Positions 2,886 to 12,664 of a stretch of DNA of 64,000 bases are shown here, piece by piece. This DNA is from Amycolatopsis granulosa (GTDB lineage Bacteria; Actinomycetota; Actinomycetes; Mycobacteriales; Pseudonocardiaceae): positions 2,294,001 through 2,358,000 of the forward strand of contig NZ_JAANOV010000001.1 in the NCBI RefSeq assembly GCF_011758745.1, read 5' to 3'. Numbering within the stretch: the first letter of the stretch is position 1; each line of letters opens with the position of its first letter. Under the pieces are notes generated by a model. That model was not told where the DNA came from. It did no database searches and saw only the letters and a program-made list of their open reading frames with translations. Made by a program: the position numbers and the translations under genes.

Positions 2886-3083
2886 TCATTTCCACCTGGC
2901 GTCTTCCTCATCGGCCTTGCGGGTCCGCTCGCGCGCGATCTCGAGCGCCCGTTTCGCCGTCGCCTCGTCGGGATAGGGGCCGAGGAGGTCGATGGACCGC
3001 GACCGCTCGAGGTGTTCCACCTCGCCGGTGCGGGTGTTGTAGTACCAGCCCTGGTCCGGGTTCGGGTCCGTGTCTTTCGCCAT
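2886..3083 (-). CDS. Small SPOR-like protein of unknown function
   Basis: 65 aa, highly charged and soluble. The N-terminal part, QGWYYNTRTGEVEH, looks like a WW-type strand pair. The middle GPYPDEATAKRALE resembles the repeat of SPOR domains, which bind peptidoglycan glycans, but the protein holds only about half of such a domain. Similar short proteins occur widely in actinomycetes. It lies 39 bases beyond the last gene of the T4SS-like operon, in the same orientation, so it may be its last member or a separate housekeeping gene. Function unknown. Confidence 0.6.
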   Translation of the reverse strand: MAKDTDPNPDQGWYYNTRTGEVEHLERSRSIDLLGPYPDEATAKRALEIARERTRKADEEDARWK

Positions 3084-3122
3084 GCCCCGAGCTTCGCACC
3101 CGGCGCGGACCCGCGCCAGCGG

Positions 3123-4097
3123 TCAGGGGCGGTAGCGGTACGGCAGCTCCGTCGGCCGGCCGGTCGGGCCGAAGTCCTGCTCCGGCTGGTCCTCCTCGAA
3201 CCAGTCCCGGTTCGCCCTCGCGGGCGCCGCCGGCTCCGCATCGGCCGTGCGGCCGCCCAGGGGGATACCGGCCGCCGGAGTGGGCTGGGGCTGCGGCGGC
3301 AACGGCTCGGTGAACCGAGGCCGCTCCTCCACCGGCTCCATCGTGCGCCACGCCTGCGGGTCCGTGACCGGCCGCGTATCCGGCTGCGCGGTCGCCGGCG
3401 TGGGTAGCGCCGCACCCGGCTCGGACACCGGCGCCCAGCCGCTCTCCCGCGCCGGCCTGGCGCCCGCTTCGGGCGGCGTTCGCGGTGCCGCCAGCTTCTT
3501 CGGCGGCTCCGGCAGCGGCGGCACCTCGGGCGACGGCGTGGTCGGCGTGGTCCGCCACACCGGAGCCGGCGGGATGATCATCGGCGCGGCCCGCGGCGCT
3601 TCCGGGGCCGGGGCGGCGGCCCGCGGTTCGCGGCGGGACTGGCCGCGTGGCGGGATCGGGTCCAGGCACGGCACCAGGACCGTGGTGTTCTCCGGCTCCT
3701 CGACCTTCCGCCCGCTGCGCTCGCGGTAGATCATGTCGCCGTCGCCGTCGATCTCGACCAGGTAGCCGACCTCCGCGAGCTGCTCTTCGTCCAGGTTGAC
3801 GAGCTTTTCGTAGCGCGACGGCACGGTGCGGTACACCGGCCACGACAACGACCGGTGCTGCTGGTGGAACTGCGCCAGCAGACCGGCCATCTGCTGCTGC
3901 CACGGCAACGACATCGACTCGGCCAGCGACCGCGGCAGCACGACGTAACCCTCGTCCACGCCGGGCAGCGTCTGCGACAGGTAGTCGGCCAGCGGAGTGC
4001 TGGACGCCGGCGGCCCCGAACGCGGCGGGGGCGGCGGGGCACCGAACAGATCGCCCAGCTGCGCCGGCTTCTTGCGCTTACCGAACTTCTTCGCCAC
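3123..4097 (-). CDS. Proline-rich cytoplasmic protein at the end of the T4SS-like operon
   Basis: 324 aa. The N-terminus is basic (AKKFGKRKK) and followed by a Pro stretch. A folded part at about residues 35-130 includes WQQQMAGLLAQFHQQHR, and from residue 140 to the end the chain is Pro/Ala/Glu-rich and probably disordered. There is no signal peptide or membrane segment. The GTG at 4097 is fixed by a near-perfect Shine-Dalgarno, GGAGGTGAT. It follows the wall-hydrolase gene by 13 bases, so it belongs to the operon. I do not recognise the family; low-complexity tails of this type often serve as scaffolds or recruit partners at membrane machines. Confidence 0.6.
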   Translation of the reverse strand: MAKKFGKRKKPAQLGDLFGAPPPPPRSGPPASSTPLADYLSQTLPGVDEGYVVLPRSLAESMSLPWQQQMAGLLAQFHQQHRSLSWPVYRTVPSRYEKLVNLDEEQLAEVGYLVEIDGDGDMIYRERSGRKVEEPENTTVLVPCLDPIPPRGQSRREPRAAAPAPEAPRAAPMIIPPAPVWRTTPTTPSPEVPPLPEPPKKLAAPRTPPEAGARPARESGWAPVSEPGAALPTPATAQPDTRPVTDPQAWRTMEPVEERPRFTEPLPPQPQPTPAAGIPLGGRTADAEPAAPARANRDWFEEDQPEQDFGPTGRPTELPYRYRP

Positions 4098-4110
4098 CGG
4101 GAATCACCTC

Positions 4111-5109
4111 CTACACACCGGGCCGGACTGCCTGCGGCACGAGTTCGTCTTCGGTCCAGGAAACCTTCCGGATGTGCACCGGCACACCGTCCTGCTGCGC
4201 CTCCACGATCTTCCCGTCGCCAAGGTACATCGCGACGTGGTGAATGGTCGCCGGGTTCGAGGTGTCGTAGGCCCAGAACAGCAGGTCACCGGGCTGGGCG
4301 TCCCGCACCGGGAGCATCGCGCCGTTGTGGTACTGGTCGCGCGACACCCGGCTGAGCGTGATGCCCGCCGCCTCGTACGCCCGCAGCATCAGACCGGAGC
4401 AGTCGTAGGCGTTCGGGCCCGTCGCGCCCCACACGTAGGGTTTGCCCTGCTCCCCCAGCGCGAACTGGATGGCGGCCGACGCGGCGTTGTTCGGCGGCAG
4501 CACCAGGCCCGCGCTCTGCCCGCAGCCGACCATGTCCGCGACCTGCCCGAGGTTTTCCACCAGGTGGGCGGCCATCTGCTCCCACTTGTGGTACCGGTCC
4601 GGGAAGGCCGAACGCTCGACGTCCTGCGCCGAGGCGCCGGGACGCTGCTTGTCCCAGTCCGGCACGGCGAGCAGCACGTCGTAGAACTTGTTGATCTGGT
4701 ACGGAATGTCCTGCAGCTGCGCGACCGTGCCCCAGCCCATCGACGGCCGCATCTGGAAGATGCCCAGCGAGTCGCGGTCGCCGTAGTTCAGGTTGTGCAT
4801 GCCCGACTCGGTCATCCCGGCCTGGATCGCGATCTGCCAGGCACGCGGGGACAGGCCACGCTGCTTGCCGATCTCGATGATCTGCCCGACGATGAACTGC
4901 TGGTCGCCGGTGAGCCGCGCGGCTTGCGCGGCACCCTGGTCGCCACCCGGCACGCTCGGCCCGATCGCGGCATCGCAGCTGACGTTGCGGTAGGCGGCCT
5001 GCATCTGGGCCTGCTGCTGGTCGGTCACGACCTTGCTGAGCACCCCGACGGTCGCCACCCCGGCGAACAGGACGGCGGCCAGGCCGCCGGCGAGGACACC
5101 GATCCGCAT
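4111..5109 (-). CDS. Secreted lysozyme-like plus NlpC/P60 wall hydrolase (VirB1-like)
   Basis: 332 aa. The N-terminus is a membrane anchor or signal (GVLAGGLAAVLFAGVATVGVL). A lysozyme-like region around residues 70-150 carries the motif YGDRDSLGIFQMRPS common to actinobacterial muramidase-type domains, with Glu in MTESGMH as the candidate catalytic acid. An NlpC/P60 peptidase domain follows from about residue 215, with Cys in YDCSGL and His in IHHVAMYLGDG. The pair of activities would open peptidoglycan locally, the job of VirB1 in type IV secretion. The start at 5109 lies 3 bases after the stop of the VirB8-like gene, so translation is probably coupled. Confidence 0.82.
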   Translation of the reverse strand: MRIGVLAGGLAAVLFAGVATVGVLSKVVTDQQQAQMQAAYRNVSCDAAIGPSVPGGDQGAAQAARLTGDQQFIVGQIIEIGKQRGLSPRAWQIAIQAGMTESGMHNLNYGDRDSLGIFQMRPSMGWGTVAQLQDIPYQINKFYDVLLAVPDWDKQRPGASAQDVERSAFPDRYHKWEQMAAHLVENLGQVADMVGCGQSAGLVLPPNNAASAAIQFALGEQGKPYVWGATGPNAYDCSGLMLRAYEAAGITLSRVSRDQYHNGAMLPVRDAQPGDLLFWAYDTSNPATIHHVAMYLGDGKIVEAQQDGVPVHIRKVSWTEDELVPQAVRPGV

Positions 5110-5112
5110 GGG

Positions 5113-5709
5113 TCAGCTCGCCTGGTCGAAGCCGGTGACGAGCCAGCCGGCCGGGGTCTTCGCGACGGTGATCGACAGCCTCGGGCCGTCGGTGGGGACG
5201 AGCACCTCGACGGAACTGGTGTAGGACTTGGTGACCGTCGGTTCGCCGGTCACCCGGGTGGCCGGGACGTTCGCCGGGTCCACTGTGGACATCTCCGGCA
5301 GGTACTCCGCCGTCGTGAGTGGACGCAGGCCGTCCAGCCACTGGGCGTTGGTGATCCCGGCCGGGTGCGTGGACCACGCGGTGGCCCACTGCCTGGCGAC
5401 CTGCAGCGCCGCCGGGTCCGGCGCGGCGGGCGTCGGCTGCAGCAGGGGCGCGGTGAGCCGGGTCGGCAGGGGTGTCGACGTGGCACCGCTCGGTGGCCGT
5501 GTCGTGGTGCCGTCGGCACCCTGCACGCGGACCGGGGCCGGCCCGGGACGGCCGGGATGGCCCAGCAGCTGCGGCACCACGATGCCGATCGCGACGATCA
5601 GCACGATGACCGCGACGGCGCTGCCGACGAGGTGGGCGGGCGAGCGCAGCGGGAAACCCCAGATGCGGCGGTAGACGGCGGCGCGGCCGCGGTTGGTCCG
5701 GATCGGCAT
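5113..5709 (-). CDS. VirB8/TcpC-like single-pass membrane protein
   Basis: 198 aa: a basic cytoplasmic head, one membrane helix at about residues 26-50, a Pro/Thr-rich linker, then a roughly 100-residue domain from ARQWATAW to the end, with the alternating strand pattern and final GWLVTGFDQ seen in NTF2-like folds. That architecture matches TcpC and VirB8, inner-membrane scaffolds of conjugation machines. The gene lies between the VirB6-like and wall-hydrolase genes with 3-5 base gaps. GGTGAGG precedes the ATG. The family assignment rests on architecture and context more than on sequence motifs. Confidence 0.65.
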   Translation of the reverse strand: MPIRTNRGRAAVYRRIWGFPLRSPAHLVGSAVAVIVLIVAIGIVVPQLLGHPGRPGPAPVRVQGADGTTTRPPSGATSTPLPTRLTAPLLQPTPAAPDPAALQVARQWATAWSTHPAGITNAQWLDGLRPLTTAEYLPEMSTVDPANVPATRVTGEPTVTKSYTSSVEVLVPTDGPRLSITVAKTPAGWLVTGFDQAS

Positions 5710-5714
5710 CTACC

Positions 5715-7775
5715 TCACCGCACGATCCGGTCGGTGTCCCGGAGATCCTCGCGCACCTCGAGCCCGCGCGAGGGCCGGTACAGCACGTGAACCGGCTTGC
5801 CGCCGACGAGTTCCCGCCCGGCGCGGCGTGGTTCCGGCCGCTGCGCGGGGGTGGCGGACACGCCCGGCCGCGAAATGCGCGACGGGATGACCACCGGGTC
5901 GGGTTCGTCCCAGCCCCGGTCGTAGACCGGCGAGGTGTCCACGCGGCGGCTCGGCGGCTGCGCGACCGGCGGCATCCAGCCGTCGGCGCGGCGCGTGGTG
6001 CCCGGCGGCGCCGAGTAGACGAACGCGTCCGGATCGGCGCCCTGCGGGACGTAGCCGGCGTGGGCGGGCTGGTTGCCACCGCCCGAAGGCAGTCCACGGC
6101 GGGTCCGGGCGGGCAGCGCGGGGCCACCACCCGGCCACGGCGCGCCGGACCAGGCAGCCGCCGGGCGGGCGGCCATCGCACCCGCGCCGTCGAGCCGCTG
6201 CGCGGTGGCGAACACGGTCGCCTCGGGACGCCCGCGACCGGCCGACCCGGTCGGGCTGGCCACCTCGCTCTCCTCGCCCTCGCGCACGCTGTCCCAGAAC
6301 TCGTCCTGCGGCGTCGGCCCCTGCTTCTTGCGGAACCGGCTGAACAGCCCCCCGCTCGGCGCCGGAATGGACGACCCGACCATGCCGACCGACATCTCGA
6401 CCATCTGCCACAGGCGGCGCACCGGCCGCCCGACGAGGAAGAGCAGCACCGTCACCAGACCCGCCATGACCATCTGGGTGAGAATCGACAGCGAATTCCC
6501 CGCAGCGAAGATCGCCTGCAACAGCAGGGCGTGCACACCGGCGAGCACCGAGAGGACGAGCAGGTTGAACCCGACCGCGCCGATCAACCGGGCGACTCGG
6601 CGCAGGATGTCGTGGTGCAGGAGCGCGACGAGCCCGATCAGCGGAGCGGTCAGCACGAACAACCGGATCAGCACCTGGGCCAGGAGCACGGAAGCCTTGG
6701 CCAGCAACTGGAACAGGGCGTAGACCAGGCTCTGGCCCAGCGCGAGGAATCCCGAACCAGTCCGGCTGCCACCTTCACCCGTGAAGTACTGGGTGGCGGG
6801 ACCGAGCTGAGTGGAAATGTTCTTGTAGGCGGCCTTCTTCCCGTCCACCACGCCCTGGTTGGCATCATCGCCGTTGCGGATCTGGTCCCATGTGAAGGCT
6901 TGCGCGTCGAGCAGCGGGCGCCCGAACTGCTGCGCCTGCGAGGAATCCGGGGCGCCGAATTCGCCCCGCAACCAGTTGCTGTAGATCACCTGGTTGTACA
7001 GGTCGGTCGGCAGAATCTCACGCACGATACGGTCGCCGGAGTTGTCCACGAATCCGGCCTGGATGTTCGTGCTCGTTTGCACGATGGCCCGGTCGATGGG
7101 ATCGAAGTACTGCAGCATGGCCATCGACGAGGCCGCGAGCCAGACGGCCCCAAGGGCGTAGAGCCCGCGTTTGCTCACGGCCGACAGATCACCCCGCCAG
7201 ATGTTGCGGAACATCATGATGGCGAGCACCAGCGCGAACAGGCCGAACAGCTGGGCGTAGATGTTGTTGTAAACCTTTTCCGCACCCGACTTGACGGCGT
7301 TGTAGATGGGGTTGAGGAGCCCGCCTTCCATCACGGTGTAGTGCAGCGAGTTGGTCGCTCCGACGATGTTCTTGCCGATGTTGAACAGCTGGTTGCCGGC
7401 CCAGGTGTCAATGGTCGTGTTCGGGCTGGTGATTCCGGACAACGGGCCGCAGTCGGTCTGGTAGACGTACCAGACGGTGCCCGCATAGCTGTAGTCGAGG
7501 TAACCACTGCCGTTCTCGCCATGACGCGCCGGCGGGTCCAGCGCGCCCACCAGCCCGGAACCGGGCCGCTCCGGATTCGGTGCGTCGCCGCAGGCTGCGG
7601 CTGACGCGGAGGGCGCCAGGACGGTCGTCTGGAAGGCCATCACCAGGACTACTCCCAGCACGGCCGTCCAGCGGGGTGGTCTCTTGCGGCGGCTGCCGCG
7701 GTTCTTCAGACCCCTGCGGAGCGCGTGCCAGCACCCGGCCAGGGCGAGCACGCTCAGGACCGTCACGAGCGTCAT
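5715..7775 (-). CDS. Polytopic membrane protein, VirB6/TrbL-like
   Basis: 686 aa. An N-terminal helix (VLSVLALAGCWHALR) is followed by a second segment ending in a signal-like ATTVLAPSASAAACG region. A long exported stretch comes next, then at about residues 220-520 five or more hydrophobic helices (FGLFALVLAIMMF, LLAQVLIRLFVLTAPL, LLFLVGRPVRRLW). The remaining 150 residues are a disordered Pro/Arg-rich tail. In T4SS, VirB6 and TrbL proteins form the inner-membrane channel. The start ATG at 7775 overlaps the VirB4 stop as ATGA, which fixes it and implies coupled translation in a roughly 1:1 ratio. Confidence 0.75.
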   Translation of the reverse strand: MTLVTVLSVLALAGCWHALRRGLKNRGSRRKRPPRWTAVLGVVLVMAFQTTVLAPSASAAACGDAPNPERPGSGLVGALDPPARHGENGSGYLDYSYAGTVWYVYQTDCGPLSGITSPNTTIDTWAGNQLFNIGKNIVGATNSLHYTVMEGGLLNPIYNAVKSGAEKVYNNIYAQLFGLFALVLAIMMFRNIWRGDLSAVSKRGLYALGAVWLAASSMAMLQYFDPIDRAIVQTSTNIQAGFVDNSGDRIVREILPTDLYNQVIYSNWLRGEFGAPDSSQAQQFGRPLLDAQAFTWDQIRNGDDANQGVVDGKKAAYKNISTQLGPATQYFTGEGGSRTGSGFLALGQSLVYALFQLLAKASVLLAQVLIRLFVLTAPLIGLVALLHHDILRRVARLIGAVGFNLLVLSVLAGVHALLLQAIFAAGNSLSILTQMVMAGLVTVLLFLVGRPVRRLWQMVEMSVGMVGSSIPAPSGGLFSRFRKKQGPTPQDEFWDSVREGEESEVASPTGSAGRGRPEATVFATAQRLDGAGAMAARPAAAWSGAPWPGGGPALPARTRRGLPSGGGNQPAHAGYVPQGADPDAFVYSAPPGTTRRADGWMPPVAQPPSRRVDTSPVYDRGWDEPDPVVIPSRISRPGVSATPAQRPEPRRAGRELVGGKPVHVLYRPSRGLEVREDLRDTDRIVR

Positions 7776-10651
7776 GCGGCGTCCCAGCCGCCGCGGTTTC
7801 CGGCACCCGCCCGCTCGCCCGCGCCGGGCACGTCCTCGGCGAGGATCTGCTCCTCCGTGAGCCCCACCTCGCGCTCGGCGGCCAGCTCGAGGTCCGGTTC
7901 CAGCTCGTCCTCGGGTGGCGGCGCCGGGACGTGCTGGTCCTCGACGGCGGGCTCGGACTCGCGGGCCCGCGAGTCGGCCGGCAGGGCGTCCTTCGAACCC
8001 GGCGTCGTGTCCAGGGCGGCGCGCAGGTGGGCCAGGTGCGGGCCGGAGAAGTCCACGCGGATGCGCTCCACTCCGCCGGCGCCGTCGCCGAAGATGAACT
8101 GCCGCGGCTCGCGGTCGCGCTCCAGGCCGCGCTGCGCGCCGGGCCGCCGGCCCAGCGAGGCGACCACCTGCTCGTACCCCACGCCGACCGGCACCTTCAG
8201 CAGCCGCAGCGCGTCGGCCTGTGCCTCGTCGTCGTCGAGGCGCCCGACGAACACCGAGTCGAGCAGTGCGACGAACCCCTGGATCTTCAGGAAGTCCGCC
8301 GGGATCTGCGAGGACAGCAGCACACGGACGTTCCACTTCCGCGAGTCACGCGCGAACCGGTTCATCAGCACGCGCCCGGTCGGGACCTCGGACAGGAAGA
8401 ACGCCTCGTCGATCCACACGCCCTTGCGCAGGTCCTTCGGCTTCTCGTACACCGACCGCTGCGTCAGCCACGCGGCCAGGTTCAGCATCTCCACGCCGAG
8501 CGCCTCGGCGTCGGTCCAGTGCTCGCGGCCCACGCCGTCCTTCGGCAGCGTCAGGCCGGCCATCGTGAGCACCGTCAGCCGGTCGTCGCGCGTCTCCGAG
8601 TACGGGTCGGCGTCGCTCTCCGGGATCAGCAGCGACATGCGCTCACGCATCTCGTCGAGGAAGTCCGCGACCACCACCGCGTGCTCGTGGTGCTCGCTGG
8701 AGTCCCGCCGCAGCGCATCGATCACCTGGCCGGGGTCGGCGTCGTACCGGCCGCCGACCGCGCGCACCGCCCGCAGCAGCACGATCCGGCTCTGCGGCAT
8801 GCGCGCGACCTCGTAGGGCAGCACGCCGGTGAGCACGTCGAGCACCAGCCGCCGCCGGGTCGCGCCCGCCAGCGCACGCTCACGCCGCCACGCCCGCTCC
8901 GGGTCGTCCTCGTCCATGAAGTGCTCGAGCAGCGGTTCGGCCACCACCCGGTACGGGTTGAGGATGCCGGGCTGCGCGTTCAGCAGGTTGATCGGCCGCG
9001 CGTAGGGCCGGATCTCGGGCAGGTCGCACAACCGGGACAGCGGACCGGACGGGTCGAGCAGGGTCCAGTGCGCCCCGGCCCGCAACGTCTTGTAGACGAT
9101 GCCGCCGCCGAGGAACGACTTGCCGCCGCCGAGCCCGGCGACCATCGCGGTCAGACCGGATCCGTCGCGGATCTCCTGCGCCATCCACGGGTCCCACGCC
9201 ACCGGGCGCCGCGTGGCGGTGCAGGTCTCGCCGAGCAGGATGCCGCGCCGGTCACCGACCTCCGCGGTCGCCGTGGGCACCGCGGCCGCGGCCCACACCA
9301 CGGAACCGCGGCGCATGTAGGCCGCCGAGGACAGCGGCTCGCCCGGGATGAACTCCCGCGCCAGCGCGTACTGCGCCTCCGGGTGCTCGATCGCGATCTT
9401 CGGCTTGTACAGGTCCAGCAGCTGCTGGGCCAGCCGCAGCGCCTCGCGCTCGCTCTCGCCGGACACCGCCAGCCGCCACCACGACCGCACCCGCGTGGCC
9501 AGCGCGGTGAAGCCCGAGGTCATCTCGTCGTCGATCTCCAGCACCCGGCCGGCCTGGCGCGCCAGCGACTGCGGCGGCTCCAGCTCGTGCTCGTCGGTGT
9601 AGTGCTTGACCTGCGAGCGCACCTTGTTCATCTGGCGTTGCAGCTCGCCGGCCACCTCCTCGGGGCGGCGCACGTAGATGCGCGCCGACCACTCCACCGA
9701 GGCGGGCAACCGGTCGGCGTGCTGCACCCACGGGTCGTCGACCTCGGGGATCTGCAGGCCGTGCATCTGGCCGACGGTGAGCACCGCGAGGTGACGCTGC
9801 ACGCCCGCGTTGGAGCCGGTGCGCCCCCGCACGGTGAGCGTCGGCGCGTACGGCTCGGCGTGGAAGTCCGCCGCGTCGGTGAAGCTGGCCAGGTCCTCCG
9901 GCTCCCACGCCGCACCGGGCACGGCGGGCAGGTGCCGGGGCGCGGGCAGGCCCAGCGAGCACGAGCGGTGCATCAGCCAGGACATCTCCTCGGCGTGCAC
10001 CGGGCGGCCCTCCAGGCCGGACGAGCCGATCACCTGGTCCAGGTGCTCGACCTCGGAGTCCAGCGCGGCCAGCTCGGCGTCGACCGCCTCGGGCAGGATG
10101 CGGCGCAGCAACGGGGCGGCCCGCTCGACCGCCCGGTCGACCGCGCGCCGGGTCTGCACCTGGACGCCGAGGTAAACCTCCTTCTCCGCCATCGACCGGC
10201 CGAGCAGCTGCTGCTGCTCGCCGATCAGGTAGTCGTCGAAGGACAGCGCGCCGGGCACGTCCGGTGGGCGGCGGACGGCGTTGTGGACGTGCGCCTCGGC
10301 CCACATCCGGATCGGGTAGGGCCGGGTGGTGACGCGCAGGTGCAGCCACCGGCCTTGCAGTTCGGCGTACTGACCGGCGATCGCGGCGATCAGGTCACGC
10401 CGTTGCGAGTCGGAGCGGAACGACCAGCGCTGCGGCGCCAGCCGGTACCAGGCGTACACCTCGTTCCCGGTGCGCACCAGGTGCCCGTCGATGGTGCGCA
10501 GCGCGATGGACGGGGTGTAGCTCGGTATCGCCTGCTCACCGGGCAGCCGGCGGCCCTGCTTGCCGGGCGCGCGGCCCGGCTGCGGCGACCACTGGGTGGC
10601 CCCGCCCGGGTCCGGCTTCCCGGCCTTCCGGCGTCCGCCGCTTCCGAACAA
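7772..10651 (-). CDS. VirB4-family T4SS ATPase
   Basis: 959 aa. The N-terminal half matches the TraC/VirB4 N-domain layout. The ATPase half has Walker A GLGGGKSF (near residue 507) and a Walker B-like GVWIDEAFFL (near 747), then a C-terminal IPADFL/VFVGRL stretch. VirB4 ATPases energise assembly and transport in conjugation and secretion systems and work on the cytoplasmic face. The start is a TTG at 10651 preceded by GGTAGGAGG, an almost ideal ribosome site 7 bases away. No second ATPase (VirD4-type coupling protein or VirB11) is encoded nearby. The acidic C-terminal tail (about 60 residues, rich in Glu/Asp) is not a feature of the core family. Confidence 0.88.
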   Translation of the reverse strand: MFGSGGRRKAGKPDPGGATQWSPQPGRAPGKQGRRLPGEQAIPSYTPSIALRTIDGHLVRTGNEVYAWYRLAPQRWSFRSDSQRRDLIAAIAGQYAELQGRWLHLRVTTRPYPIRMWAEAHVHNAVRRPPDVPGALSFDDYLIGEQQQLLGRSMAEKEVYLGVQVQTRRAVDRAVERAAPLLRRILPEAVDAELAALDSEVEHLDQVIGSSGLEGRPVHAEEMSWLMHRSCSLGLPAPRHLPAVPGAAWEPEDLASFTDAADFHAEPYAPTLTVRGRTGSNAGVQRHLAVLTVGQMHGLQIPEVDDPWVQHADRLPASVEWSARIYVRRPEEVAGELQRQMNKVRSQVKHYTDEHELEPPQSLARQAGRVLEIDDEMTSGFTALATRVRSWWRLAVSGESEREALRLAQQLLDLYKPKIAIEHPEAQYALAREFIPGEPLSSAAYMRRGSVVWAAAAVPTATAEVGDRRGILLGETCTATRRPVAWDPWMAQEIRDGSGLTAMVAGLGGGKSFLGGGIVYKTLRAGAHWTLLDPSGPLSRLCDLPEIRPYARPINLLNAQPGILNPYRVVAEPLLEHFMDEDDPERAWRRERALAGATRRRLVLDVLTGVLPYEVARMPQSRIVLLRAVRAVGGRYDADPGQVIDALRRDSSEHHEHAVVVADFLDEMRERMSLLIPESDADPYSETRDDRLTVLTMAGLTLPKDGVGREHWTDAEALGVEMLNLAAWLTQRSVYEKPKDLRKGVWIDEAFFLSEVPTGRVLMNRFARDSRKWNVRVLLSSQIPADFLKIQGFVALLDSVFVGRLDDDEAQADALRLLKVPVGVGYEQVVASLGRRPGAQRGLERDREPRQFIFGDGAGGVERIRVDFSGPHLAHLRAALDTTPGSKDALPADSRARESEPAVEDQHVPAPPPEDELEPDLELAAEREVGLTEEQILAEDVPGAGERAGAGNRGGWDAA

Positions 10652-10661
10652 CCTCTACCTC

Positions 10662-11117
10662 CTACCGTGGCGCCGGAGGGCGTGCGCCACGCGGTCGTGC
10701 TGTCTGGTGGTGAGGATGGGCCCCCGCCGCGGCGGGGTGCCGTTTGTGCTTGGGCAGCGGCCGCTGGTTCCGCACGCGGATCTTCGTGGCCGTGACCGCA
10801 CCGCCCGCCCCGGAGGTCTGCTCGCGGGGCGTTTGCAGTTCGCGCAGCCACATGGTCAGGACGGCACCGAGCGGACGCTCGTGACTGATCTTGGCGGTGA
10901 TCATCCGGGTGATCAAGATCGTCAGGACGAAGGCCCACGCGGTGGAGAAGAAGCCGAACCCGAAGCCGAGCTGCCGCTCCACCGCGAGGACGAGGAGGAA
11001 CACCGGGATGCCGACGCCCCACGCCACGTAGCGGGCCCGCCAGGGGAACGTCGCCTTCGGCGGCCCGAGCCAGACCGCGTCGACCCGGTAGACCTCGTCA
11101 TCGGTTCGAATCCGCAC
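10662..11117 (-). CDS. PrgI-like membrane protein of the T4SS-like operon
   Basis: 151 aa. Two closely spaced hydrophobic helices (YVAWGVGIPVFLLVLAV and FFSTAWAFVLTILITRMI) lie at about residues 30-75, with a basic cytoplasmic tail. This is the layout of PrgI/VirB3 proteins, which sit directly upstream of virB4 in Gram-positive conjugation operons, as here (10-base gap). The GTG at 11117 follows GGGATAA. The last 60 residues (KHKRHPAAAG and onward) are low complexity. Confidence 0.65.
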   Translation of the reverse strand: MRIRTDDEVYRVDAVWLGPPKATFPWRARYVAWGVGIPVFLLVLAVERQLGFGFGFFSTAWAFVLTILITRMITAKISHERPLGAVLTMWLRELQTPREQTSGAGGAVTATKIRVRNQRPLPKHKRHPAAAGAHPHHQTARPRGARPPAPR

Positions 11118-11135
11118 GCGTGTTATCCCGCGCCG

Positions 11136-11402
11136 TCAGCTGGTGAACAAGCCGGCGATCCACTGGCCGACGTTGACGCCGAGCCCGCTCACCGCGAGGC
11201 CGACGATCGCGAGCGCGATCACCACACCGGCGAGGCGGCGCATGACGCCGGCGTTGTCGCCTTTGCCGCCGCCGAGCCAGAGCAGCAGCAACGCGACGGA
11301 GAGCAGGACCAGGGGGATGATGTTGTCCAGCAGCCACTGCTGAACCCCTCGGGTCCTGATCTCCTGCTGCGCCAGGTGCTGCACAACTGTCATCATGGTC
11401 AT
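11136..11402 (-). CDS. Small two-helix membrane protein, first gene of the T4SS-like operon (VirB2-like)
   Basis: 88 aa with two strongly hydrophobic helices (IIPLVLLSVALLLLWLGG and LAGVVIALAIVGLAVSG) joined by a short basic loop, and no cleavable signal. The size, topology and position ahead of PrgI/VirB4 are those of VirB2/TrbC pilin-like subunits or Gram-positive counterparts. GGGAG, 6 bases before the ATG at 11402, supports the longest start; ATGs at 11396 and 11393 are alternatives. The PrgI-like gene follows after 18 bases. Confidence 0.6.
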   Translation of the reverse strand: MTMMTVVQHLAQQEIRTRGVQQWLLDNIIPLVLLSVALLLLWLGGGKGDNAGVMRRLAGVVIALAIVGLAVSGLGVNVGQWIAGLFTS

Positions 11403-11501
11403 CGCGTACTCCCAGGTGCGAGGAGTGTGGGTGTCGGGTGGGTCAGCGCGGGCGGGCCCACGAGGTCGGAAAGTTCGTCCGGTCTGTCTAGCCCATCATG
11501 G

Positions 11502-11518
11502 CGTCACGAGCTGTGACG
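11502..11518. repeat. Inverted repeat upstream of the T4SS-like operon
   Basis: Perfect 6-5-6 palindrome, CGTCAC-gagct-GTGACG, 100 bases upstream of the first gene of the operon. It is a plausible regulator site; the regulator is unknown. Confidence 0.45.
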
Positions 11519-11847
11519 GTCAAAGCGCTCACTGTCGAACGGCAGTCCATTCACACCAGGCACAGTACGGCCACTTCCACTGAACTCGTCGCCCTCCATC
11601 ATCGTGGCAACACCGCTCAGGGTTAACCCCCTGCACCCGGATTTCCTAGTGTGGGCATGGACTCACTCACAGGCGCAATCTCGGCTCACTCTGGGTGTGC
11701 GGTATCGCTGGTCGATGGCGCGGGGAACAGTGTGGCATGACCCGTTCGGCCGCATCGCATGTACCCGGGCGTGACGGCCCCTCCGGGCGAGTCGATCATC
11801 CGATCCGGCGAACGCGATCACGGAGCGCCCCGGTGGCTCGGCCGGGT

Positions 11848-12269: not shown

Positions 12270-12664
12270 GGCGGACGAGTTGGCCTGTAAGCCGGATCCT
12301 GTCCCGCGGCCGGAGCCGCGGTGGCGGCCATCCATCTAGGCCCGCCGTCGCCGACGGGCTCGAGCGGCCTACCCGCAGGCATCGGACGGGCCGCCCTCGA
12401 TCGCCTGCGCAGGCACCTTCCGGCGCCCTCTTGGCCTTGCTCCGGGTGGGGTTTACCGAGCCACCCCGGTCACCCGGGGTGCTGGTGGTCTCTTACACCA
12501 CCGTTTCACCCTTACCCCGATCCTGCCGGACCGGGGCGGTCTGTTTTCTGTGGCACTGTCCCGCGGGTCGCCCCGGGTTGCGGTTAGCAACCACCCTGCC
12601 CTGCGGAGTCCGGACTTTCCTCGAGGGAGTGACCCTCGCGGCCGCCCGGCCAACTCGTCCGCCC
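12270..12664 (-). ncRNA. rnpB: RNase P RNA (class A)
   Basis: Catalytic RNA that trims the 5' leader of tRNA precursors. On the minus strand all the hallmark blocks occur in order: GAGGAAAGTCCGGAC near the 5' end, CCACAGAAAACAG, AGGGTGAAACGGTGG followed by GTAAGAGACCACC, CTAGATGGATGG, and CCGGCTTACAGGCC at the 3' end. The ends pair as P1: the 5' strand (12648-12661) and the 3' strand (12273-12286) share the 14-base complement around GGACGAGTTGGCC. A TACCCT -10 element (12669-12674) fits a start near 12664. The exact ends are estimates to within a few bases. Confidence 0.95.

Follow-up and report, generated by a model that had tools for sequence, protein, structure and literature searches.

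A type IV secretion-like channel fixed in Pseudonocardiaceae, apparently related to plasmid conjugation systems and found without their FtsK-type ATPase

INTRODUCTION

Export of cytosolic substrates in one step, as is usual for type IV secretion systems (T4SSs), is not to be expected from a channel that lacks a coupling protein. Pump-less T4SSs are known, and the sections of one article that deal with them (PMC12857230) describe ComB, which imports DNA, Ptl, which exports proteins that are already outside the inner membrane, and Bartonella Trw, which also lacks VirD4 and is proposed to make pili. Here we describe a T4SS-like unit from the actinomycete Amycolatopsis granulosa. In a 64,000-nucleotide stretch of its genome (assembly GCF_011758745.1, contig NZ_JAANOV010000001.1, positions 2,294,001 to 2,358,000; hereafter the window, whose own numbering we use), eight leftward genes downstream of rnpB (positions 2886..11402, with intergenic gaps of -4 to 39 bp) encode VirB2-, PrgI/VirB3-, VirB4-, VirB6-, VirB8-, and VirB1-like proteins, together with a Pro-rich protein and a 65-residue protein. 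A preliminary description, made from the letters of the window, had recognized a tight leftward T4SS-like operon here, as our analysis confirmed, and had read it as a fixed chromosomal machine without a coupling protein or relaxase rather than as a mobile element.

Passages bearing on this subject in three publications state that T4SSs are few in actinobacteria (a 2011 survey; PMC3158045), that VirB4 was sought jointly with a relaxase and a coupling protein (a 2011 survey of actinobacterial integrative conjugative elements [ICEs]; PMC3218068), and that a single virB4 was noted amid unknown genes in the Micromonospora lupini genome (PMC4182475). Among the matches listed for the open-access literature, there was no published description of this channel.

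RESULTS

Fixation in Pseudonocardiaceae

VirB4 was present in all 248 Pseudonocardiaceae genomes, covering 44 of 44 genera, and in all 237 genomes with completeness of ≥90% and contamination of ≤5%; the patchy distribution that would be a sign of an ICE was not seen. The A. granulosa genome (5.62 Mb) has a single match to the window VirB4, and 233 of the 248 genomes likewise have one, the remaining 15 having two or three, of which some are split genes. The rest of the gene set was counted in one representative from each of the 43 other genera, from which loci of ≤19.5 kb each were fetched. VirB2, PrgI, VirB4, VirB6, and VirB8 were all found in 43 of 43 representatives and the hydrolase and the Pro-rich protein in 42 each; in the one locus with no hydrolase (L175), VirB4 is in two pieces and a contig end lies nearby. 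These representatives had no extra variable gene in the stretch from VirB2 to the Pro-rich gene. The proximity to rnpB seen in the window also held in many genera, with rnpB inside the fetched locus in 35 of the 43 representatives (on the opposite strand in two). In a wider set of 81 loci, several of them cut by contig ends, rnpB was matched in 70 and VirB8 and the hydrolase in 76 each. The best 80 of 295 confirmed relatives were 79 to 96% identical and bore Pseudonocardiaceae genus names, except for one named to class only and one named to family only.

The VirB4 tree followed the RpoB tree across 30 genera (Spearman 0.78, equalled by 0 of 2,000 permutations; Pearson 0.52). The two trees had 14 of 27 splits in common, against a mean of 0.2 and a maximum of 3 in 500 label shuffles, and there was no conflict between the 13 VirB4 splits and the 13 RpoB splits that had support of ≥0.95. 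We concluded that in Pseudonocardiaceae the channel set has become fixed and passes by vertical inheritance, almost always as a single copy, which supports the view of it as a chromosomal machine that is not mobile.

The two most divergent genera (L173 and L174; VirB4 63 to 64% identical, with rnpB not in the fetched locus) group together in the VirB4 tree and in the RpoB tree.

In VirB4, the Walker A Lys and Ser and the Walker B Asp-Glu were invariant in 44 of 44 sequences (the 43 representatives plus the window), and hydrolase residues Glu101, Cys237, and His291, which we infer to be catalytic, were invariant in 43 of 43. When the genes were compared with those of three relatives, all but one of 24 comparisons gave dN/dS values below 0.5 (0.06 to 0.11 for VirB4). 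The exception, 0.58, came from the 65-residue gene in L009, where the locus scan found no such gene, and that match is probably wrong. On this evidence, the operon is alive and held by purifying selection. In the 300-bp regions preceding the first gene, the commonest 8-letter word occurred in 18 of 44 loci, CTTTGACC in 9, and CCATGATG in 11; when the letters were shuffled, the maximum for any word averaged 5.75. This suggests a conserved promoter.

Plasmid relatives and the FtsK-type ATPase

Ninety-four plasmid records held a VirB4 relative, all of them at <60% identity, and in the best 60 of the 94 VirB4 was 33 to 43% identical. Twelve of the plasmid loci were fetched, of which 10 are recorded as linear, and in those fetched the gene order VirB2, PrgI, VirB4, VirB6, VirB8, wall hydrolase is the same as on the chromosome. 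An annotated FtsK/SpoIIIE-domain gene lay within ~8 kb in 10 of the 12, a VirD4-like gene in one, and neither in one. Position lists placed an FtsK-family gene within 7 kb for 37 of the best 60 VirB4 records, or 45 of the 60 when the fetched annotation was added (50 of the 60 FtsK rows were used; the ten left out, all Prescottella, have no counterpart among the VirB4 records). For the other 15 records, no nearby FtsK was shown; the two of these that were fetched are the one with a VirD4-like gene and the one with neither. Of the mobile relatives that we found, the closest are plasmid systems; among the plasmids fetched, most are linear.

A profile built from nine plasmid FtsK proteins had no match in 80 plus 43 loci of Pseudonocardiaceae, 14 of Micromonosporaceae, and 18 of Streptosporangiaceae, nor in the window and the flank to its left; its nine full-length plasmid-locus matches are the profile's own rows, and hence not an independent control, and the other two plasmid loci tested gave one weak match. 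Genome-wide, in 24 genomes, it found partial matches only and none of full length. The best matches in 23 of the 24 covered 85 to 98 of 703 positions, and most of them lay in frames of 580 to 1,800 residues, which we read as behaving like cell-division FtsK, and the best match in the remaining genome covered 249 positions of a 476-residue frame. What the plasmid relatives have and the chromosome lacks is chiefly an ATPase of the FtsK/SpoIIIE type and not VirD4, and these data refine the preliminary description, which had suggested looking for VirD4/TraG elsewhere in the genome.

On plasmid pNSL1 (NC_010850.1, 16759-23798), a VirB4 relative lies ~2.2 kb from an FtsK/TraB-type gene. A review, in its lines on the subject, describes pVAPN and pNSL1 as being transferred independently of a relaxase and a T4SS (PMC6852188); our comparison suggests that rhodococcal linear-plasmid conjugation has a T4SS channel beside an FtsK translocase despite that description. 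On one Streptomyces linear plasmid (1 of 11 plasmid loci), a gene for the Pro-rich domain follows the hydrolase gene (E 6e-12), and this domain may have long belonged to that plasmid lineage.

Related machines in other families

In a class-wide sample, 40 of 296 genomes, with 22 of 106 genera represented, had a match at E 1e-10. Most of these matches came from two other families, which were named from the best protein matches of their genomes, the first from Micromonospora (Micromonosporaceae) and the second from Nocardiopsis, Thermobifida, Nonomuraea, Thermomonospora, and Streptosporangium (Streptosporangiaceae sensu lato). With the window VirB4 as the query, 96 of 101 Micromonosporaceae genomes (one of them with a partial match) and 40 of 42 genera were positive, and with an own-family VirB4 as the query, 150 of 150 Streptosporangiaceae genomes and 62 of 62 genera were. 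The Micromonosporaceae genomes with no VirB4 match are G684, G698, G714, G732, and G743, three of which are from one genus. In a family of the same order that we took to be Mycobacteriaceae, no VirB4 match was found in the 20 genomes listed.

Counterparts of the remaining genes were called with the Pseudonocardiaceae profiles. Fourteen Micromonosporaceae loci yielded VirB4 in 14, VirB6 in 14, PrgI, VirB8, and the hydrolase in 13 each, and VirB2 in 2; 18 Streptosporangiaceae loci yielded VirB4 in 18, VirB6 in 17, the hydrolase in 14, VirB8 in 6, and VirB2 and PrgI in none. The Pro-rich domain was matched in none of these 32 loci. Wherever all six channel genes were called (11 of the 14 Micromonosporaceae and 9 of the 18 Streptosporangiaceae loci), the order VirB2, PrgI, VirB4, VirB6, VirB8, hydrolase was kept; the remaining loci had contig ends, genes that went uncalled, or insertions. 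The seats are different: folP-folB-folK accompanied the machine in 8 of the 14 Micromonosporaceae loci, and ychF was in view in 11 of the 18 Streptosporangiaceae loci. In Streptosporangiaceae, the tail of the protein at the PrgI place is very long, and besides the usual VirB8 a further one, of the TcpC family, is encoded (E 8e-10 in L111).

Two kinds of locus deserve mention beside these. In loci L111 to L114, whose genomes we take to be of the Nocardiopsis type, other genes, including those for a kinase and a DUF6891 protein, interrupt the machine genes. Chromosomal loci L126 and L127, which we take to be from a Streptomyces-like genome, have a distant VirB4, and L126, with VirD4 (TraG-D_C, 2.8e-33), an M23 plus NlpC plus SLT hydrolase, and a DUF4913 protein, is a different T4SS.

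Relationship of the chromosomal and plasmid channels

A VirB4 tree of 92 sequences placed each chromosomal family in a single clade (support 1.0), with plasmid clades falling between Pseudonocardiaceae and Micromonosporaceae. For a 37-sequence subset analyzed under a mixture model, a single clade of Pseudonocardiaceae plus Micromonosporaceae was rejected (approximately unbiased [AU] test, P = 0.0004); the grouping was chosen after the first tree and the program warned of long branches, which makes this good but not final evidence. The machine appears to have common ancestry with plasmid conjugation systems. Because the single clade is rejected and the machine occupies three different seats, repeated domestication is the simplest reading: a plasmid channel would have been captured by the chromosome and its pump then lost, and Pseudonocardiaceae and Micromonosporaceae, at the least, would have gone through this independently of each other.

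Mobile-element features

We found no VirD4-type match, to either TraG-D_C (PF12696) or T4SS-DNA_transf (PF02534), anywhere in the A. granulosa genome, in agreement with the preliminary description. PF02534 is present in 18 of 44 genus representatives and absent from 26, and VirD4 is thus not a constant partner of the machine. The statement that there is no relaxase stands for the TrwC family (PF08751), which was not found in the A. granulosa genome, other relaxase families not having been searched. There is no tRNA in the 64-kb window or in the 60 kb to its left, and there was no phage match. The base composition of the unit is that of its surroundings, as had been claimed. The further claim that housekeeping genes border the unit held for rnpB and extended to the ten flanking genes scanned, which are metabolic or housekeeping genes, although no profile search for integrases was made.

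Organization of the locus

All of the following features lie on the minus strand. The first gene (11136..11402) encodes the VirB2/pilin-like protein, of 88 residues with two membrane segments, which was matched by a six-frame hidden Markov model search in the 43 genus representatives. Its loop, GGGKGDNAGVMRR, is strongly conserved within Pseudonocardiaceae; the loop differs in the aligned plasmid and other-family counterparts, so GGGKGDNAGVMRR is not common to plasmid pilins. The next gene encodes the PrgI/VirB3-like membrane protein (10662..11117; 151 residues), whose profile matched 10 of 11 plasmid loci (E 1.9e-17 or better). The VirB4/TcpF-like ATPase (7772..10651; 959 residues) matched AAA_10 (1.5e-18) and TcpF (1.3e-18), and a sequence search of the PDB with it gave no match. 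Overlapping the VirB4 stop codon is the start of the gene for the VirB6-like polytopic membrane protein (5715..7775; 686 residues), whose match to NCBIfam CD3337/EF1877 was below the cutoff (E 2.6e-4) and whose profile matched 11 of 11 plasmid loci.

The VirB8/TcpC-like bitopic protein (5113..5709; 198 residues) was identified from an AlphaFold2 model that matches the structures of TraM, 3ub1, DotI, CagV, VirB8, and PrgL (NTF2-like fold), 3ub1 being the entry that we take to be TcpC. Fold comparison was used because a match of the window-family VirB8 to the Streptosporangiaceae TcpC-like profile had a probability of just 3%. The VirB1-like wall hydrolase (4111..5109) combines a muramidase-like part (residues 78 to 182 match muramidase 8b2e, E 3e-6) with an NlpC/P60 domain (NLPC_P60, 4.4e-23). 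The protein with a Pro-rich tail (3123..4097) has no membrane segment and a conserved domain of ~110 residues that has no match among solved structures; its model is of low confidence (mean pLDDT, 62.8). The last gene (2886..3083), for the 65-residue protein, was found in 35 of the 43 representatives and is separable from the unit, lying further away in several loci.

A candidate promoter, CTTTGACC ... CATGATG (11494..11525), ends ~90 bp before the first gene, and rnpB (12272..12657; Rfam RF00010, 283 bits) is a conserved neighbor outside the machine. Facing the 3' end of the unit (1463-2841) are genes for a CooC/ParA-like ATPase and an SCO5389-family (KH_NucS_shadow) protein, matched in 33 and 4 of the 81 loci, respectively, mainly in Amycolatopsis and Prauserella. 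We considered the CooC/ParA-like gene as a plasmid relic and saw no sign of this, as it is dissimilar to four plasmid ParA proteins.

DISCUSSION

We consider it probable that the unit, whatever its function, is a domesticated, pump-less, plasmid-related channel under selection. The finding that three large filamentous actinomycete families have a T4SS-type channel among their core genes runs against the view of actinobacteria as T4SS poor, and a machine that is core in three families probably does something basic. The gene set is also compact and almost always single copy, in hosts for which there are gene-transfer methods.

In the mechanism that we propose, VirB4 would be the sole motor, with no export pump, and the machine would cross the thick wall and move its substrate either inward or from a starting point outside the membrane. 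As the likeliest case, we envisage ComB-like capture of extracellular DNA, which would then be handed over to the usual import channel. We prefer import because the wall-crossing parts have been kept and only the export pump is lacking, because there is no variable cargo gene inside the unit, and because direct transformation of Amycolatopsis mycelia with DNA is possible, as stated where two articles touch on it (PMC9033027, PMC6549336). ComB-like DNA import as the final step is nonetheless a tentative proposal that may well be wrong. We regard as unlikely, taken as a whole, the full scenario in which mycelial actinomycetes made an FtsK-coupled (largely linear) plasmid channel a core organelle by discarding its DNA pump, at least twice and perhaps three times, and now use it for housekeeping import of extracellular DNA as a Gram-positive ComB.

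Several points weigh against this account. The direct transformation of Amycolatopsis is a laboratory method that does not point to this machine, and competence systems are not usually retained in every genome. The pump could also be supplied by an unrelated ATPase, such as cell-division FtsK or EccC. The Streptosporangiaceae PrgI and VirB2 counterparts, and VirB2 in most Micromonosporaceae loci, were assigned from position and from likeness internal to the family only. Finally, the trees are also compatible with plasmids having taken the operon from chromosomes.

One version of that last possibility, a single ancient chromosomal machine inherited by the three families and later copied by plasmids, would explain why the gene order is the same across the families wherever all genes were called, and the root of the VirB4 tree is uncertain; we think it improbable in view of the differing seats (rnpB in 35 of 43, folP-folB-folK in 8 of 14, and ychF in view in 11 of 18) and the AU rejection of a clade of Pseudonocardiaceae plus Micromonosporaceae. 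Homology with plasmid systems is also what a remnant of an ICE, decaying or still mobile, would show. That explanation is hardly credible for an operon that is present in 248 of 248 genomes, agrees with RpoB in its VirB4 tree, is under purifying selection, and has no tRNA near it (64-kb window and 60 kb leftward of this) and metabolic or housekeeping functions in the ten flanking genes scanned, and we rejected it for Pseudonocardiaceae through the distribution and the trees.

The remaining alternatives concern what the channel does. It could take part in two-step protein export, in which Sec or Tat would act first and a VirB4-driven channel would then lead through the wall as in Ptl, or it could build an adhesive pilus like that of Bartonella Trw. 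Both have precedents without VirD4 in the sections of PMC12857230 cited above, the pilin-like VirB2 and the wall hydrolase have been kept, and there is a further conserved protein, the Pro-rich one. The unit, however, is free of extra variable genes from VirB2 to the Pro-rich gene (a substrate gene could lie nearby or elsewhere, and the neighbors were not annotated), and we hold this explanation to be rather unlikely. Much less plausible is a shared conjugation port that would serve in trans actinomycete integrative elements or plasmids bringing their own FtsK/TraB translocase. The plasmid cousins do combine the same channel with an FtsK-type ATPase, and the A. granulosa genome has two short FtsK-like frames (271 and 307 residues), possibly element borne; yet short frames of this kind (~270 to 310 residues) occur in 5 of 18 Pseudonocardiaceae genomes searched, whereas the machine is universal, and host selection would have to maintain a port for parasites.

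Among known systems, the actinomycete plasmid T4SSs (for example, those of Streptomyces sp. strain 891-h, Nonomuraea NBC_00507, and Rhodococcus NS1 pNSL1) are like the chromosomal machine in gene order and in a VirB4 that is 33 to 43% identical; they differ in that the chromosomal loci examined have no FtsK-type gene and in that the plasmid versions are not beside rnpB. The Gram-positive channels of pCW3 (Tcp), pIP501 (Tra), pCF10 (Prg), and Tn916 are similar in that our VirB4 resembles TcpF, our VirB8 fold matches TraM and PrgL, and the hydrolase has a muramidase-like part plus NlpC/P60, whereas the machine described here is chromosomally fixed and no coupling protein or TrwC relaxase was found with it. 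Like Helicobacter pylori ComB, as portrayed in the relevant sections of PMC12857230, it is chromosomal and has VirB4 as its only ATPase and no VirD4; ComB, however, is a diderm system with VirB7 to VirB10 homologs and demonstrated DNA uptake. With a VirB4 and no relaxase seen at the locus, it also resembles the MOBless T4SSs in the pertinent part of the survey by Guglielmini et al. (2011; PMC3158045), and in contrast to the few T4SSs which that part of the survey gives for actinobacteria, here such a channel is part of the core of a family.

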